Notes under the pieces: generated by a model
The model's input: the letters and a program-made list of their open reading frames with translations, nothing else
Database searches by the model: none
What the model was told of the DNA's origin: nothing
From: Calditrichota bacterium
GTDB lineage: Bacteria; CLD3
Length of the DNA stretch: 64,000 nucleotides
Reading direction: 5' to 3'
Assembly (NCBI GenBank): GCA_008501735.1
Contig: QQUF01000008.1
Coordinates: 186,001 to 250,000 of the forward strand
Shown here: positions 2 through 53,852 of the stretch, in pieces
How the letters are laid out: each line of letters opens with the position of its first letter
Position numbering within the stretch: position 1 is the first letter of the stretch
Program-made: the position numbers and the translations under genes

Positions 2-2482
2 TTACGTTACGGCACAATAGGAACAGAGGAAAAATTTTATCTCAAATGGAAAGAAGATGTTGAAGATATTAGTCGAAACCAATTGGACAAATACCTCTTA
101 AAAATGTGTAACAAGGAGAGATTTCTTGAAATCATTTTCGACTTTATTGTTTTCGATGGTGGTAGGAAGAAACTACCAAGAGTTCATCAGTATTTTGGAG
201 TCAAAGAAGCACAAAAATACGTAAGAAGAAAAGAAAGCGGAATCATTTGGCACACACAAGGAAGTGGGAAAAGTATTGTAATGGTAATTCTTGCCAAGTG
301 GATTTTAGAAAATAACCCAAACGCAAGAGTTGTCGTTCTAACTGACCGAGATGAATTAGATAAACAGATAGAAGGAGTCTTTAAAGACGCTGGTGAAGAA
401 ATTTACCGTACCAAAAGCGGTAAAGATTTAATGAGCCAATTAGGACAAGCAGCTCCTCGACTTTTGTGTTCGTTAATCCATAAATTTGGTAATAGAGATG
501 TTAGTGATTTTAATCAGTTTATTAAAGATTTAAAGAGCCAACCACAACAAGCTGTTGGAGAGCTTTTTATTTTTGTTGATGAGTGCCACCGAACTCAAAG
601 TGGAAAATTAAACCGAGCAATGAAAGCAATTTTACCTGATGCAGTTTTTATTGGTTTTACAGGAACACCACTTCTCAAGAAAGACAAAGAAACCAGTCTT
701 GAAGTTTTCGGAAGCTACATACACACTTACAAATTTAACGAAGGCGTTGATGATGGAGTAATCTTGGATTTGGTCTATGAAGCAAGAGATATTGACCAAA
801 AACTAACTTCACAAAAAAGGATAGACGAGTGGTTTGAAGCCAAAACAAAAGGCTTGAATGAGTATAAAAAGAATGCTCTCAAACGTCAATGGGGAACGAT
901 GCAAAAGGTTTTGAGTAGTCGCTCCCGAATGAGTAAAGTCGTTTCTGATATAATTTTTGATTTTAGCACAAAGCCAATTTTGGATTCTGATTCAGGAAAT
1001 GCCATTTTGGTGGCAAATTCAATTTATGAAGCTTGTAAATATTACGAGTTATTTCAACAAACACCTTTGAAAGGTAAATCAGCAATTGTTACCTCTTACA
1101 ATCCTCAAACAGGTGATATTTCTACCGAAGATACTGGAGCAAATACCGAGACAGATAAAGAGTTTATGTATAATTTATACGAAAATATCTTGAAGGATGT
1201 AAAACAAGAGGCAAATAAATCTAAAACAGAAAGCTATGAAGATTGGGCTAAAAATAAATTCATTAACGAGCCAGTAAATATGAAATTACTAATTGTAGTT
1301 TCAAAATTACTAACAGGCTTTGATGCTCCAAGTTGTTCCTATTTATACATTGACAAAAGTATGCAAGACCACGGGCTTTTTCAAGCGATTTGCAGGGTAA
1401 ACCGATTAGATGGTGAGGATAAACAATTCGGTTACATTGTTGATTACAAAGACTTGTTTAAAAAAGTAGAAACTGCGATTTCTGTTTACACTTCCGATTT
1501 AGATTACGATGAATTTGAAGCAGAAGACATTGATGTTATGCTAAAAGACCGTTTGAAAGCAGGGAAAGAAAGACTTGATAATGCTTTGGAAGAAATTGCA
1601 TTACTTTGTGAAAAAGTTGAAACACCAAAAGATACAATGGCTTATATCAGATTCTTTTGTGGTAATCCTGAAATAGAATCAGAATTAAAAGCAAAAGAAA
1701 CACATCGAACTTCACTTTACAAAAAAGCAGTTTCATTAATTCGGGCTTATGCAAATATTGCAGATGAAATGGAATCAGCAGGTTATACTTTGACCGAAAT
1801 AGAAAACATCAAAGAAGAGGTAAATCATTACCTTAATGTGCGTGAAGAGATTAGAAATGCCAGTGGAGAAACATTAGATTTAAAAACGTATGAAGCCGAT
1901 ATGCGTCATTTGATTGATACATATATTGAAGCAGACGAACCCGAAAAAATTTCACCTTTCGATGATATGTCGCTCTTAGATATAATTGTTAAAACTGGAA
2001 TTTCTGATGCAATTGGAAAATTACCAAATGGAATTAAGGGTAGTCAAGAAGCAGTTGCAGAAACCATAGAAAATAATGTCCGAAGAAAAATCTTAAAAGA
2101 GCATTTGAACGACCCTGCATTTTTTAAAGATATGTCAAAATTACTTGCAGATATTATCGAGGCAAGAAAAGCAAAAGCAATAAACTATGAGAAGTATCTT
2201 CAAAAGATAGCCAAACTTGCTAAAGATGTAAATGATGGTAAAACTGATGAAACACCAAAGATTTTAAAAACCATTGCCCAAAGAGCTTTGTATAACAATT
2301 TGGGAAAAGATGAAAATTTGGCGATGCAAGTTGACGAAGCTGTAATGACTTCCAAAAGAGATAGTTGGCGAGGGAATTTGGCTAAAGAAAGAGAAATACA
2401 ACAATCTCTTTATCAAATATTAAATGACGTAGAAAAGGTGGAAGCAATTTTTTCAATAATCCGAGAGCAAACAGAATACTAA
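2..2482 (+). CDS. hsdR: Type I restriction enzyme R subunit (HsdR), 5' end outside window
   Basis: This is the ATP-dependent translocase and nuclease subunit of a type I restriction complex. The reading frame is open from base 2, so the gene starts left of the window and the N-terminal nuclease domain is not seen. Superfamily 2 helicase motifs are present: Walker A GSGKS (about 260-274), DECH (578-589), TGTP (about 662-670) and the motif VI stretch QAICRVNR (1382-1405). The C-terminal third is the helical region typical of HsdR. The stop overlaps the next start (TAATG at 2480-2484), so the two are translationally coupled. The hsdM and hsdS partners must lie to the left if the system is intact. 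Asn, Asp and His codons look more NAT-biased than in the core genes to the right, by eye. Confidence 0.95.
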   Translation, partial: LRYGTIGTEEKFYLKWKEDVEDISRNQLDKYLLKMCNKERFLEIIFDFIVFDGGRKKLPRVHQYFGVKEAQKYVRRKESGIIWHTQGSGKSIVMVILAKWILENNPNARVVVLTDRDELDKQIEGVFKDAGEEIYRTKSGKDLMSQLGQAAPRLLCSLIHKFGNRDVSDFNQFIKDLKSQPQQAVGELFIFVDECHRTQSGKLNRAMKAILPDAVFIGFTGTPLLKKDKETSLEVFGSYIHTYKFNEGVDDGVILDLVYEARDIDQKLTSQKRIDEWFEAKTKGLNEYKKNALKRQWGTMQKVLSSRSRMSKVVSDIIFDFSTKPILDSDSGNAILVANSIYEACKYYELFQQTPLKGKSAIVTSYNPQTGDISTEDTGANTETDKEFMYNLYENILKDVKQEANKSKTESYEDWAKNKFINEPVNMKLLIVVSKLLTGFDAPSCSYLYIDKSMQDHGLFQAICRVNRLDGEDKQFGYIVDYKDLFKKVETAISVYTSDLDYDEFEAEDIDVMLKDRLKAGKERLDNALEEIALLCEKVETPKDTMAYIRFFCGNPEIESELKAKETHRTSLYKKAVSLIRAYANIADEMESAGYTLTEIENIKEEVNHYLNVREEIRNASGETLDLKTYEADMRHLIDTYIEADEPEKISPFDDMSLLDIIVKTGISDAIGKLPNGIKGSQEAVAETIENNVRRKILKEHLNDPAFFKDMSKLLADIIEARKAKAINYEKYLQKIAKLAKDVNDGKTDETPKILKTIAQRALYNNLGKDENLAMQVDEAVMTSKRDSWRGNLAKEREIQQSLYQILNDVEKVEAIFSIIREQTEY

Positions 2483-23891: not shown

Positions 23892-23938
23892 GTAGGGAAC
23901 AAAAATTTTTGTTCCCTACAAATTTGTTCCCTACAAAT
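23892..23938. repeat. Palindromic repeat family A, copy 1
   Basis: A 28-bp perfect palindrome (arm GTAGGGAACAAAAA, 23892-23919) is followed by an extra right arm (TTTGTTCCCTACAAAT). It lies between the convergent ATPase and sodN genes and may end both transcripts. Copies 2 and 3 are at 36550 and 53109, all followed by AAATT. Confidence 0.9.
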
Positions 23939-23940
23939 TA

Positions 23941-24411
23941 TTAATGCTTGTGTCCTTCAAAGTATGCTTTCTCAAAACTATCAATCAAACTATTAAGTTT
24001 TTTGACGTTAGCTAAGTCAGTAGTTTGTTTAGCTTTCATTGAGTAAACAATCATTTCGTGGAGCATTGTAATCTTTTCTAAATATTTTGCGTGAGCTTCT
24101 TTTTTACTTGAATCACTTGGTTTGATTCTTTGTGCTAAAAAGTATTCAGTTACAATTTTTTCTAACTCGTCAGCGTGTTCGTCTTTGTTACTCACCCAAC
24201 GGACAATTTGGTTGTAATTTTTTGCGTCTTTTGCAGAAAGTTCCAAAATTTGGTTCATTCCTTTTTCGATTGTTTTCACGTGTTCACGCATCAAGGAAAT
24301 TCTAACTTCGTCGTCATAAATCCCACAAGGAATTTGGCAGTGAGCGAAAGCTTGAGAAATTGCAAAAGCACTAATTAAAACAAAACTAAATAACGATTTT
24401 TTCAAGTTCAT
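23941..24411 (-). CDS. sodN: Nickel superoxide dismutase with N-terminal signal peptide
   Basis: This enzyme converts superoxide to oxygen and hydrogen peroxide using nickel. The 156-residue precursor starts with a Sec signal (MNLKKSLFSFVLISAFAISQ, then AFA) and the next residues are H24-C25-Q-I-P-C29-G-I-Y. This is the nickel hook HCxxPCGxY, in which the new N-terminal His and both Cys bind the metal. The mature form of about 133 residues is close to known enzymes. Cleavage after AFA by signal peptidase would expose His1 directly, so a dedicated SodX peptidase would not be needed, and the enzyme would act outside the cytoplasm. AGGAG lies upstream of the ATG. A Mn/Fe-type SOD is at 53247. 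Confidence 0.92.
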   Translation of the reverse strand: MNLKKSLFSFVLISAFAISQAFAHCQIPCGIYDDEVRISLMREHVKTIEKGMNQILELSAKDAKNYNQIVRWVSNKDEHADELEKIVTEYFLAQRIKPSDSSKKEAHAKYLEKITMLHEMIVYSMKAKQTTDLANVKKLNSLIDSFEKAYFEGHKH

Positions 24412-24521
24412 TTTTAAACTCCTGTAAAGTTTGGTTATTTGAAAAATTTAGCGTCCAAGTTACAAACTAAAAACTTTTCGTTCAATTAAATTATCTTCTC
24501 AAAATTATTGAGTGTTAAGGG

Positions 24522-36549: not shown

Positions 36550-36577
36550 GTAGGGAACAAAAATTTTTGTTCCCTAC
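36550..36577. repeat. Palindromic repeat family A, copy 2
   Basis: A 28-bp perfect palindrome identical to that at 23892 is followed by AAATT. It lies between nuoF and the SRPBCC gene, both on the minus strand, and could act as a terminator for nuoEF. Confidence 0.9.
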
Positions 36578-44358: not shown

Positions 44359-45203
44359 TAAAAAGTCCTTTGCGTTATCCGGGTGGAAAAAGCCGAGCAA
44401 TAAAAATAATTTCGGAATTAATTCCCGATTTTGATGAATTTAGAGAGCCTTTTGTCGGTGGTGGCTCGGTTTTCATTTTTCTAAAACAAAGATTCCCAAA
44501 CAAAGAATTTTGGATAAACGACATTTACTTTGAGCTTTTCAAATTTTGGGAAATGGCTCAGAAAAATTTAGACTTAGTAATTGAGCAAGTTGAAACTTGG
44601 AAAAGTGAATTTGAAAATGGAAAAGAACTTCACAAATTTCTAAAAGTAAACATTCAAGATTTTGACGACCTGAGAACGGCAAGTGCATTTTTTGTTTTCA
44701 ACCGAATAACTTTTTCAGGAACAACCGAATCAGGTGGCTTTTCAGAACAGGCTTTTACAGGACGATTCACGGAATCAAGTATTGAAAGATTAAGACCTTT
44801 GGAAAGACTTCTAAAAAATGTAAAAGTTACAAACCTTGACTTTGAAGAGGTAATTAAGGCGGAAGGTGAAAATGTTTTTCTTTTTCTTGACCCTCCTTAT
44901 TTTTCAGCCACAAAATCCGCTTTGTACGGCAAAAATGGAAATTTACACAAAGGTTTCGACCACTTAAGGTTTGCCAAAACAATGAAAAATTGCCAACACA
45001 AATGGCTAATCACTTACGATGATTCGCCTTACATTCGGGAATTATTTTCATTTGCAAGCATCTTCTCTTGGGACTTAACTTACGGAATGCGAAACATCAC
45101 TTCCAAATCAAACCAAGTCGGAAAAGAAATTTTTATCTCAAATTACCTTGAAAAATTACCAGAAAAAACACAACTAAGAATGTTTGAAGAAAGCATCTTC
45201 TAA
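44355..45203 (+). CDS. D12-class (Dam-type) N6-adenine DNA methyltransferase
   Basis: This 282-residue methyltransferase modifies adenine in its recognition site and protects the host from the upstream endonuclease. It shows the D12 signature LRYPGGKS (6-13), the SAM-binding PFVGGGSVF (32-40) and the catalytic D179-P-P-Y182. It overlaps the endonuclease gene by four bases, so methyltransferase translation may depend on that of the nuclease. This order is less common than methyltransferase first. No controller protein is visible. Confidence 0.88.
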   Translation: MIKSPLRYPGGKSRAIKIISELIPDFDEFREPFVGGGSVFIFLKQRFPNKEFWINDIYFELFKFWEMAQKNLDLVIEQVETWKSEFENGKELHKFLKVNIQDFDDLRTASAFFVFNRITFSGTTESGGFSEQAFTGRFTESSIERLRPLERLLKNVKVTNLDFEEVIKAEGENVFLFLDPPYFSATKSALYGKNGNLHKGFDHLRFAKTMKNCQHKWLITYDDSPYIRELFSFASIFSWDLTYGMRNITSKSNQVGKEIFISNYLEKLPEKTQLRMFEESIF

Positions 45204-45216
45204 AATAGGAGTTCAA

Positions 45217-46821
45217 ATGAACATTTCTAAAATTCTAATTCTACCGATTTTGGCAAGTTTCCTTTTTGCTTGCGGAGCCGAAGAGAAACAAACTGAAACG
45301 AAGAGAATTGATTTGTCAAAACCAAAAACAGGCGGAGTTTTGGTCTTCGGTCGTGGAGGAGATTCAGTCGGACTTGACCCATCGAAGGAAACTGACGGCG
45401 AATCAATGAAAGTTTGCGACAACATTTACGAAAACCTTGTTACTTACGTCAAAGAAGGAACGGAAATTATTCCTTCGCTTGCAACTTCTTGGCAAATTTC
45501 GGAAGACGGCTTGGAATACGTTTTTACACTCAGGCAAGGTGTAAAATTCCACGATGGAACTGATTTTAATGCAGAAGCAGTACTTTTCAATTTCAACAGA
45601 ATGTACGACAAAAATCACCCGTTTTACAATGTTGGCGGAACGAACAAGTATTGGGATAATATGGGAATGTCAAAAATTATTAAAGAAATTTCTAAAGTGG
45701 ACGAGTTCACTGTGAAATTCACTTTGAATTTCCCCGAGGCTCCTTTCTTGGCAAACCTTGGAATGAACTTCGCTTCAATTTCAAGTCCGACTGCAATTCA
45801 AAAATTTGGTGACGATTACAATAAAAATCCTGTTGGAACAGGACCTTTCAAATTTGTCGAATGGGTTAAAGACGCAAGAATTGTGATTGACGCAAACGAA
45901 AATCATTGGAACGGAAGACCTTACCTCGACAGAGTGATTTTTAGAACAATTCCTGAAAATAATGTGCGTTTCCTCGAACTAAAAAAAGGAACCATTGCGA
46001 TTATGGATTTACCGAATCCTGACGACATTCCTTTGATGGAAAAAGACTCTAAAATTAAAGTCCAAAAAGCACCGGGTCTGAACGTTGGTTACTTTGCGTT
46101 GAACTGTGAGAAAAAGCCTTTCGACGACGTTCGTGTTAGAAGAGCTATGAATTATGCGATTAACAAAAAAAATATTGTCGAATACCTTTACGGCGGACTT
46201 GGAGTTGTTGCAAAAAATCCGCTTCCTCCAACAATGTGGGGTTACAACGACTTGGTTGTTGACTACGAATACAATCCTGAAAAAGCTAAAGAACTACTCG
46301 CCGAAGCAGGTGTAAAAGATTTGACAATTTCACTTTACGCAATGCCAGTTCCTCGTCCTTATATGCCGGAAGGTGTGAAAGTTGCTCAAGCGATTCAATC
46401 GGATTTGCAGAAAGTCGGAATCAATTCTGAAATAGTTCAGCGAGAATGGGGAACTTACCTTGATGAAACTGAACACGGAAAACACGATGCTTGCTTGCTC
46501 GGTTGGAGCGGAGACAACGGAGACCCTGACAATTTCCTTTACATTTTGTTAGACAAAACTGCCACAACTCCTCCTGCACAAAATGTTGCATTTTACAAAA
46601 GCGACGAGTTGCACGAAGTTTTGGTAAAAGCGAAAAGAGAAACCGACCCGAAAGTTCGTGCAGAACTTTACAAAGAGGCTTGTTTAATTGTTAAAAAAGA
46701 TGCTCCTTGGGTTCCGATTGCTCATTCACTCGTTGTTGTTCCAATGCAGAATTTTGTTCAAGGTTTTACGATTCACCCTCTGAATAAAGTTTATTTGAGA
46801 GACGTTTGGCTCGCTAAATAA
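45217..46821 (+). CDS. Peptide/oligosaccharide ABC transporter substrate-binding lipoprotein (family 5)
   Basis: This periplasmic or membrane-tethered binding protein for peptides or similar solutes has 534 residues. The start at 45217 gives a lipobox (LASFLFAC, then G) and has AGGAG upstream. A longer start at 45184 lies inside the methyltransferase gene. The body shows the SBP_bac_5 signature (YVFTLRQGVKFHDGTDFNAEAVLFNFNRM, then VRRAMNYAINKKNI). No permease or ATPase genes follow, so it is an orphan in this window. Confidence 0.9.
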   Translation: MNISKILILPILASFLFACGAEEKQTETKRIDLSKPKTGGVLVFGRGGDSVGLDPSKETDGESMKVCDNIYENLVTYVKEGTEIIPSLATSWQISEDGLEYVFTLRQGVKFHDGTDFNAEAVLFNFNRMYDKNHPFYNVGGTNKYWDNMGMSKIIKEISKVDEFTVKFTLNFPEAPFLANLGMNFASISSPTAIQKFGDDYNKNPVGTGPFKFVEWVKDARIVIDANENHWNGRPYLDRVIFRTIPENNVRFLELKKGTIAIMDLPNPDDIPLMEKDSKIKVQKAPGLNVGYFALNCEKKPFDDVRVRRAMNYAINKKNIVEYLYGGLGVVAKNPLPPTMWGYNDLVVDYEYNPEKAKELLAEAGVKDLTISLYAMPVPRPYMPEGVKVAQAIQSDLQKVGINSEIVQREWGTYLDETEHGKHDACLLGWSGDNGDPDNFLYILLDKTATTPPAQNVAFYKSDELHEVLVKAKRETDPKVRAELYKEACLIVKKDAPWVPIAHSLVVVPMQNFVQGFTIHPLNKVYLRDVWLAK

Positions 46822-53108: not shown

Positions 53109-53136
53109 GTAGGGAACAAAAATTTTTGTTCCCTAC
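53109..53136. repeat. Palindromic repeat family A, copy 3
   Basis: A 28-bp perfect palindrome, identical to those at 23892 and 36550, is followed by AAATT. It lies between the Mn/Fe SOD and BatA-like genes, both on the minus strand. Confidence 0.9.
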
Positions 53137-53246: not shown

Positions 53247-53852
53247 TTATTTTGCAGCAGCATAAAGTGCGTTAGCATTTTCCCAGTTTACAACGTTCCA
53301 GAAAGTTGCGATGAAGTCAGGACGACGGTTTTGGAATTGTAAGTAATAAGCGTGTTCCCAAACGTCTAGAGTAAGAATAGGACTTGCTCCGTCCATTAAA
53401 GGAGTGTCTTCGTTACTTGTTGAAGAGACAACGAGTTTTCCGTCTTTTACGCTTAACCAAGCCCAACCACTTCCGAATTGAGTTGCAGCAGCATTGCTAA
53501 ATTGTTCTTTGAAAGCGTCAAAGCTACCGAACTCAGCAGTAATTGCGTCGCCAAGAGCACCAGTTGGATTTCCGCCACCGTTTGGAGAAAGTGATTTCCA
53601 GTAAAGTGAGTGGTTGTAGTGTTGCCCGGCATTTTTGCGAACTCCGCCACGAATGTTTGCAGGAACTTTGTCAAGATTTTTGATTAAATCTTCTAAATCC
53701 ATATCAGCAAATTCAGTTCCTTCTAAAGCTGCATTTAATTTTGCAATGTAACCAGCGTGGTGTTTTCCGTAGTGAATTTCTAAAATACTTGCTTCAAAAT
53801 TTGGTGCAAGGTCATTAAAACCGTAATCAAGAGCATCTTGTGTAAAAGCCAT
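53247..53852 (-). CDS. Superoxide dismutase (Mn/Fe family)
   Basis: This 201-residue cytoplasmic enzyme converts superoxide to oxygen and hydrogen peroxide. The metal ligands are in their usual places (first His in ILEIHYGKHHAGY, second in AGQHYNHSLYW, then Asp and His in LDVWEHAYYLQFQNRRPD). The FQNRRPD sequence is more usual for Mn-type or metal-flexible enzymes than for strict Fe-type. No signal peptide is present, so it differs in location from the predicted exported nickel enzyme at 23941. Confidence 0.96.
   Translation of the reverse strand: MAFTQDALDYGFNDLAPNFEASILEIHYGKHHAGYIAKLNAALEGTEFADMDLEDLIKNLDKVPANIRGGVRKNAGQHYNHSLYWKSLSPNGGGNPTGALGDAITAEFGSFDAFKEQFSNAAATQFGSGWAWLSVKDGKLVVSSTSNEDTPLMDGASPILTLDVWEHAYYLQFQNRRPDFIATFWNVVNWENANALYAAAK

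Follow-up and report, generated by a model that had tools for sequence, protein, structure and literature searches.

How does a nickel superoxide dismutase (NiSOD) that carries a signal peptide come to present the histidine of its metal-binding hook as its first residue? The question is raised by a sodN gene in the window analysed here, a 64,000-nucleotide stretch of a contig from a Calditrichota bacterium. An earlier note on this DNA had read the signal peptide as ending in AFA directly before the hook histidine and had proposed that signal peptidase alone might expose the metal-binding N-terminus. The layout itself is confirmed, AFA being followed by His24 of HCQIPCGIY. The features are collected in the table.

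Features of the sodN locus and related elements, in window coordinates
Feature	Position	Strand	Basis
sodN, exported nickel superoxide dismutase, 156 aa	23941..24411	-	Profile, AlphaFold2 model, structure comparison
Sec-type signal peptide, residues 1-23, ending AFA	24343..24411	-	Sequence, hydrophobic core, -3/-1 rule, model helix 5-17
Nickel hook HCQIPCGIY, residues 24-32	24316..24342	-	Sequence; H, C, P, C, G invariant in 81/81
Four-helix bundle of the predicted mature enzyme, helices 34-60, 66-95, 104-129, 133-150	23944..24315	-	AlphaFold2 model
AGGAG, Shine-Dalgarno-like, upstream of the sodN ATG	24419..24423	-	Sequence, by eye
Palindromic repeat and an additional half copy, 3' of sodN, resembling a terminator on either strand	23892..23934		Sequence
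Fe/Mn superoxide dismutase, no signal peptide by eye	53247..53852	-	PF02777 1.9e-41, PF00081 7.2e-25

The reading frame opens with ATG, and its translation begins MNLKKSLFSFVLISAFAISQAFA, followed by the hook HCxxPCGxY in the form HCQIPCGIY. The protein matches Pfam PF09055 (Sod_Ni) with an E-value of 5.1e-31 and 108 bits (cut-off 25) and scores under the cut-off of the NCBIfam sodN equivalog TIGR02753 (49.3 bits versus 90), indicating a divergent NiSOD branch, away from that of the model. Neither the protein nor an 82-row profile matched any PDB sequence at 1e-3, so that a fold search was needed. The AlphaFold2 model, built on 81 aligned sequences (mean pLDDT 90.9), predicts a helix over residues 5-17 and, beyond the hook, four long helices. 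NiSOD chains filled the top 14 rows of a Foldseek comparison with the PDB (best E-value 5.4e-3, none reaching 1e-3), and VIA-align placed NiSOD first at Z 14.3, with an unrelated bundle, FliS, next at 13.2, about one unit lower. The entries 1t6u and 1q0d share the common four-helix fold (Z 14.2-14.3 over 115 residues) at 15-16% identity to the window protein in the VIA-align alignment; both represent the Streptomyces NiSOD, a cytoplasmic enzyme matured by SodX. Taken alone, the predicted fold is moderate evidence for a NiSOD; fold, hook and profile together make the family assignment firm, and the mature enzyme would start at His24. The flanking genes encode a PASTA protein and a 495-aa protein reading as a MoxR-type ATPase, and promoter matches upstream of sodN (two observed, 2.2 expected by chance) are at the chance level.

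The signal peptide contains two lysines and a hydrophobic core that reaches a best 10-residue mean of 2.49, and AFA stands next to His24. A loose -3/-1 rule is satisfied at six bonds of this peptide, those after residues 14, 15, 17, 19, 21 and 23, so that a single sequence does not fix A23/H24 as the cleavage site and relatives are needed. A scan of genome contigs yielded 439 relatives, and the best 80 were taken further; all 80 have the signal-peptide-then-hook layout, and the hydrophobic stretch ahead of the hook reaches a best 10-residue mean of at least 1.95 in each. A -3/-1 site lies right before the histidine in 79 of these 80, against at most 44 for any other shift, and under a strict rule (A at -1; A, S or V at -3) the corresponding counts are 60 and at most 11. 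The residue before the histidine is Ala in 75 and Ser in six of the 81 aligned sequences (74 Ala and six Ser among the 80 relatives), a count that the search itself tilts towards Ala before His, since [FQ]AHC formed part of one of its two patterns. His24, Cys25, Pro28, Cys29 and Gly30 are invariant (81/81), hook position 3 is Glu or Gln throughout (81/81), and the tyrosine at position 9 is kept, with Phe in four of the 81. Because these five hook residues are invariant and position -1 is always Ala or Ser, chance is an unlikely source of this layout. Strong comparative support thus exists for a predicted cut of the precursor at A23/H24.

By record title, 75 of the 80 loci fall into 19 named phyla, the other five being without a phylum. 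To judge from these alignments, the layout is the rule of a large branch spread across many phyla, not a special case, and the sodN of the window is an ordinary member of this widespread exported class. The earlier proposal of maturation by signal peptidase alone is supported at this locus, and the refuting outcome named with it, a predicted site elsewhere than right before His24, is not what the -3/-1 comparison of relatives gave. No relative was confirmed on viral contigs, and no conserved neighbourhood was seen round the exported sodN genes, the largest cluster covering seven of 74 loci in mixed positions (eight of 82 loci were left out of this comparison, sodN having been lost in ORF picking).

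A profile survey with PF09055, free of any [FQ]AHC-type pattern, covered 392 genomes from the phylum of the Planctomycetota locus L054 and gave matches at 58 places in 54 genomes; with two fragments left out (G090 and the second place in G126), 56 NiSODs were read. They are of two kinds. Fourteen have a short pro-sequence that lacks a hydrophobic core, with a peak hydropathy of -1.37 to 1.61, and Asp at hook position 3, whereas 42 are of the exported kind, with Glu or Gln at that position and a peak hydropathy of at least 1.68 in 40; in L157 (0.97) the start is uncertain and the hydrophobic segment lies farther upstream, and the assignment of L162 to the exported kind was made by eye. With its peak of 2.49, the window protein is not of the pro-sequence kind. 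Among the exported NiSODs of this survey (n=41, leaving out L162), the -3/-1 rule holds at the His bond in 35, compared with at most 22 for other shifts, and the strict rule in 23, compared with at most six. L162 itself (45-1466, minus strand) is an exported NiSOD with a C-terminal extension of ~310 residues in one 473-aa frame.

The two kinds also differ in what lies beside them. Scoring SodX adjacency as a TIGR02754 match with E of at most 1e-5 within 500 bases downstream of sodN, we found a match beside 13 of the 14 pro-sequence genes (nine over the curated cut-off, four under it), the remaining gene (G156) standing at a contig end, and beside none of the 42 exported genes of the survey. 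The corresponding Fisher p of 7e-12 takes genes as independent and is overstated, because the pro-sequence kind is one clade and reflects few independent events. Three genomes (G154, G223, G245) carry both kinds, with a SodX match beside the pro-sequence kind only. The SodX matches of eight exported-only genomes and of G090 stay below the cut-off (28 to 35 bits), and the contig that carries sodN has none of them. A tree built from 140 mature sequences groups the pro-sequence kind in a single clade (SH-aLRT 100) and needs one change to account for the label; this tree has few columns, many open forks, an unknown root and long branches for two pro-sequence rows, and its alignment kept in the residue that sets the label. 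The pro-sequences of all 14 SodX-type genes have Ala at -1 and Ala or Val at -3 before the histidine; cleavage chemistry thus seems to be common to both classes, the difference probably being that only one of them uses the upstream segment for export.

Individual systems outside the survey show the same two arrangements. The plasmid-borne NiSOD of Novosphingobium sp. RL4 likewise has a NiSOD hook (HCDIPC) but differs from the window protein in its non-hydrophobic pro-sequence ending AQA|H, with HupE/UreJ upstream and a SodX-like gene directly downstream of sodN. This gene matches signal-peptidase-like families and scores 44 bits against TIGR02754, itself under the strict cut-off of that model, which makes adjacency a better test than the cut-off. 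A NiSOD of Nonomuraea (L087), used as a SodX-type control, has a short pro-sequence and Asp at hook position 3; no SodX-like ORF is found among the downstream ORFs listed for it, so that the expected neighbour was not seen in this control. On the exported side, the NiSOD of Ilyobacter polytropus (WP_013389192.1, plasmid pILYOP01) is 44.8% identical to the window protein by tblastn, and its signal peptide ends in FA followed by HCEVPCGIY, with no SodX match within the 0.96-Mb plasmid record, the part of the genome searched; it differs in being plasmid-borne and in belonging to the Fusobacteriota.

Six of the 42 exported NiSODs in the survey have no signal-peptidase site before the histidine. 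In these spacer forms (L148, L151, L152, L156, L158 and L159, from G421, G085, G257, G250, G433 and G146, respectively), a hydrophobic stretch is followed by a spacer and then by Arg, Trp, Phe or Leu before His. A signal peptidase cut alone therefore cannot mature every exported NiSOD, and the sequences of the spacer forms imply either that another protease acts on them or that their hook stays blocked. Such cases lend some weight to the alternative that in the window protein, too, signal peptidase cuts earlier, for instance at SQA|FA after residue 21, and that an aminopeptidase or second protease trims the product to His24, as does the number of signal-peptide bonds that fit the loose rule. 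We nevertheless consider this improbable, given that the rule holds at the His bond in nearly all of the 80 relatives, versus 28 two residues earlier.

A different objection concerns function rather than maturation: the exported hook protein could be a metal carrier, or a protein of another metal, instead of a superoxide dismutase. The score under the sodN equivalog cut-off and the consistent Glu or Gln at hook position 3, where the 14 pro-sequence genes have Asp, would fit such a role, and exported metal binders with an N-terminal histidine exist, according to the accessible part of PMC12537917. Against it stand the retained hook histidine, both cysteines and, apart from the few Phe-bearing sequences, Tyr9, together with a predicted fold closest to that of NiSOD, and we judge this reading unlikely.

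The remaining question is whether the genome holds a dedicated SodX. A sodX gene near a second sodN copy, which the earlier note had set against its proposal, is not what we found: the genome of the window (4.14 Mb, 59 contigs, rated 100% complete) has a single sodN and no SodX (TIGR02754) over the curated cut-off of 63.25, with two matches below it. Eight other genomes of the same phylum gave no sodN match. One PF10502 peptidase is present, LepB-like by length and motifs. The 140-aa S24-like peptidase on another contig (G000 C36:23234-23653) was rejected as a SodX, and the idea that it is a cytoplasmic SodX substitute, the hydrophobic stretch of sodN being merely a pro-sequence, is in our view less likely still than either alternative above: its match spans positions 2-87 of the 90 of TIGR02754 and the SodX-like gene beside the Novosphingobium sodN also matches PF00717, but its score of 19.6 bits is far below the cut-off, the adjoining ORF reads by eye as rpe and not as sodN, a homologue exists in G001, where there is no sodN match, and SodX-type pro-sequences are not hydrophobic.

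The genomes of the relatives give a similar picture. Among the 47 searched, all had a sodN match (a single one in 45), and TIGR02754 was matched over its cut-off in one, a Holophagae MAG (G031), away from sodN. The protein there (L089, 1297-1806, plus strand) is a SodX-like S26 peptidase that adjoins a sigma-factor-like ORF, with sodN on another contig. Some SodX match at E of at most 1e-3 occurs in 23 of the 47 genomes, all but one under the cut-off; judged as a group rather than one by one, most of these sub-cut-off matches are confined to the final third of the profile and lie in frames about as long as LepB, and similar weak matches occur in four of 14 control genomes.

We therefore regard it as probable, though short of assured, that the window encodes a NiSOD of the exported branch that would be matured by a LepB cut after Ala23, bind nickel outside the cytoplasm and remove periplasmic superoxide. 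Judging by its signal peptide, the precursor would be exported through the inner membrane by Sec, and LepB, the signal peptidase I present in the genome, would cut after Ala23, a step for which the comparative support is strong. The cut would free the amino group of His24, so that the export step could double as maturation, the task performed by SodX in the pro-sequence branch. The HCxxPC hook would then bind nickel outside the cytoplasm, with the protein assembling as a NiSOD. Weighed against this mechanism are the six spacer forms, the weak SodX resemblance of the S24-like peptidase, the SodX matches in 23 of the 47 genomes and the TIGR02753 shortfall; an oxidising periplasm, moreover, could drive both cysteines of the hook into a disulfide ahead of nickel binding, which also counts against it.

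The earlier note had set two possibilities side by side, nickel available outside the cytoplasm or export of a metallated form. The signal peptide contains no arginine and hence no twin-arginine motif, and a twin-arginine-like motif occurs in only one of the 80 relatives (L033) and one of the 41 exported NiSODs of the survey (L138). The lack of arginine points to the Sec route, so nickel binding most likely follows export; of the two possibilities, external nickel is favoured and metallated export is not. NicO and HupE_UreJ_2 gave no match in the genome, which is weak evidence for a lack of nickel importers because the HupE_UreJ_2 control matched one of 14 genomes and never over its cut-off. 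A family 5 solute-binding protein lies elsewhere in the window (45184-46821, plus strand), with no recognised transporter-part ORF adjoining it (ORFs of at least 130 aa); proteins of this family include dipeptide and nickel binders.

The Fe/Mn SOD that the earlier note had read as cytoplasmic is indeed in the window; its protein begins MAFTQDALDYGF and shows no signal peptide by eye. No Cu/Zn SOD match was found in the genome, leaving sodN as the only exported SOD among the families tested (Cu/Zn genome-wide, Fe/Mn within the window). A split by compartment is plausible on this basis, in which the NiSOD would handle periplasmic and the Fe/Mn SOD cytoplasmic superoxide.

The layout itself is already in print. 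In the accessible part of PMC12537917 (2025), a planctomycete NiSOD signal peptide plus His served as BLAST bait and retrieved many NiSODs, and the NiSOD of Roseiconus lacunae (WP_230780104.1), a PF09055 member, likewise runs from its signal peptide directly into the hook His; the main text makes no mention of SodX, and the accessible part does not take up the maturation of this NiSOD. In the open literature, as far as listings and selected passages show, we found no paper describing maturation of NiSOD by signal peptidase. Ubiquitin-NiSOD fusions in algae, reported in the accessible part of PMC6332867, may be a third way to a free N-terminus.

On balance we lean towards two NiSOD maturation classes: a SodX-free exported class, in at least 19 named phyla, in which the general signal peptidase would be the maturase and nickel would be inserted outside, and a SodX-dependent cytoplasmic class that would form one clade derived from one N-terminus switch. 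Strains without sodX have been treated as possibly unable to use NiSOD, as the accessible part of PMC8346466 indicates; if two classes exist, genomes judged in this way for want of sodX may be misjudged where sodN is exported, since signal-peptidase maturation removes one reason to doubt NiSOD function in them. It would also make testable the periplasmic metallation of a thiolate-hook nickel enzyme and the source of its nickel. A class rule, with a hydrophobic signal peptide and Glu or Gln at hook position 3 on one side and a non-hydrophobic pro-sequence, Asp and an adjacent SodX on the other, would let annotators separate both kinds, if valid beyond the surveyed phylum.

Separately, a perfect 28-base palindrome, GTAGGGAACAAAAATTTTTGTTCCCTAC, occurs in three intergenic gaps of the window (23892-23919, 36550-36577 and 53109-53136), and each of the two SOD genes has one of these three copies downstream. 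The pair of 12-base arms, 0-8 bases apart, is found at 35 places in the genome, compared with none for a reversed control pattern, and the palindrome is probably a dispersed repeat or a terminator-like element.
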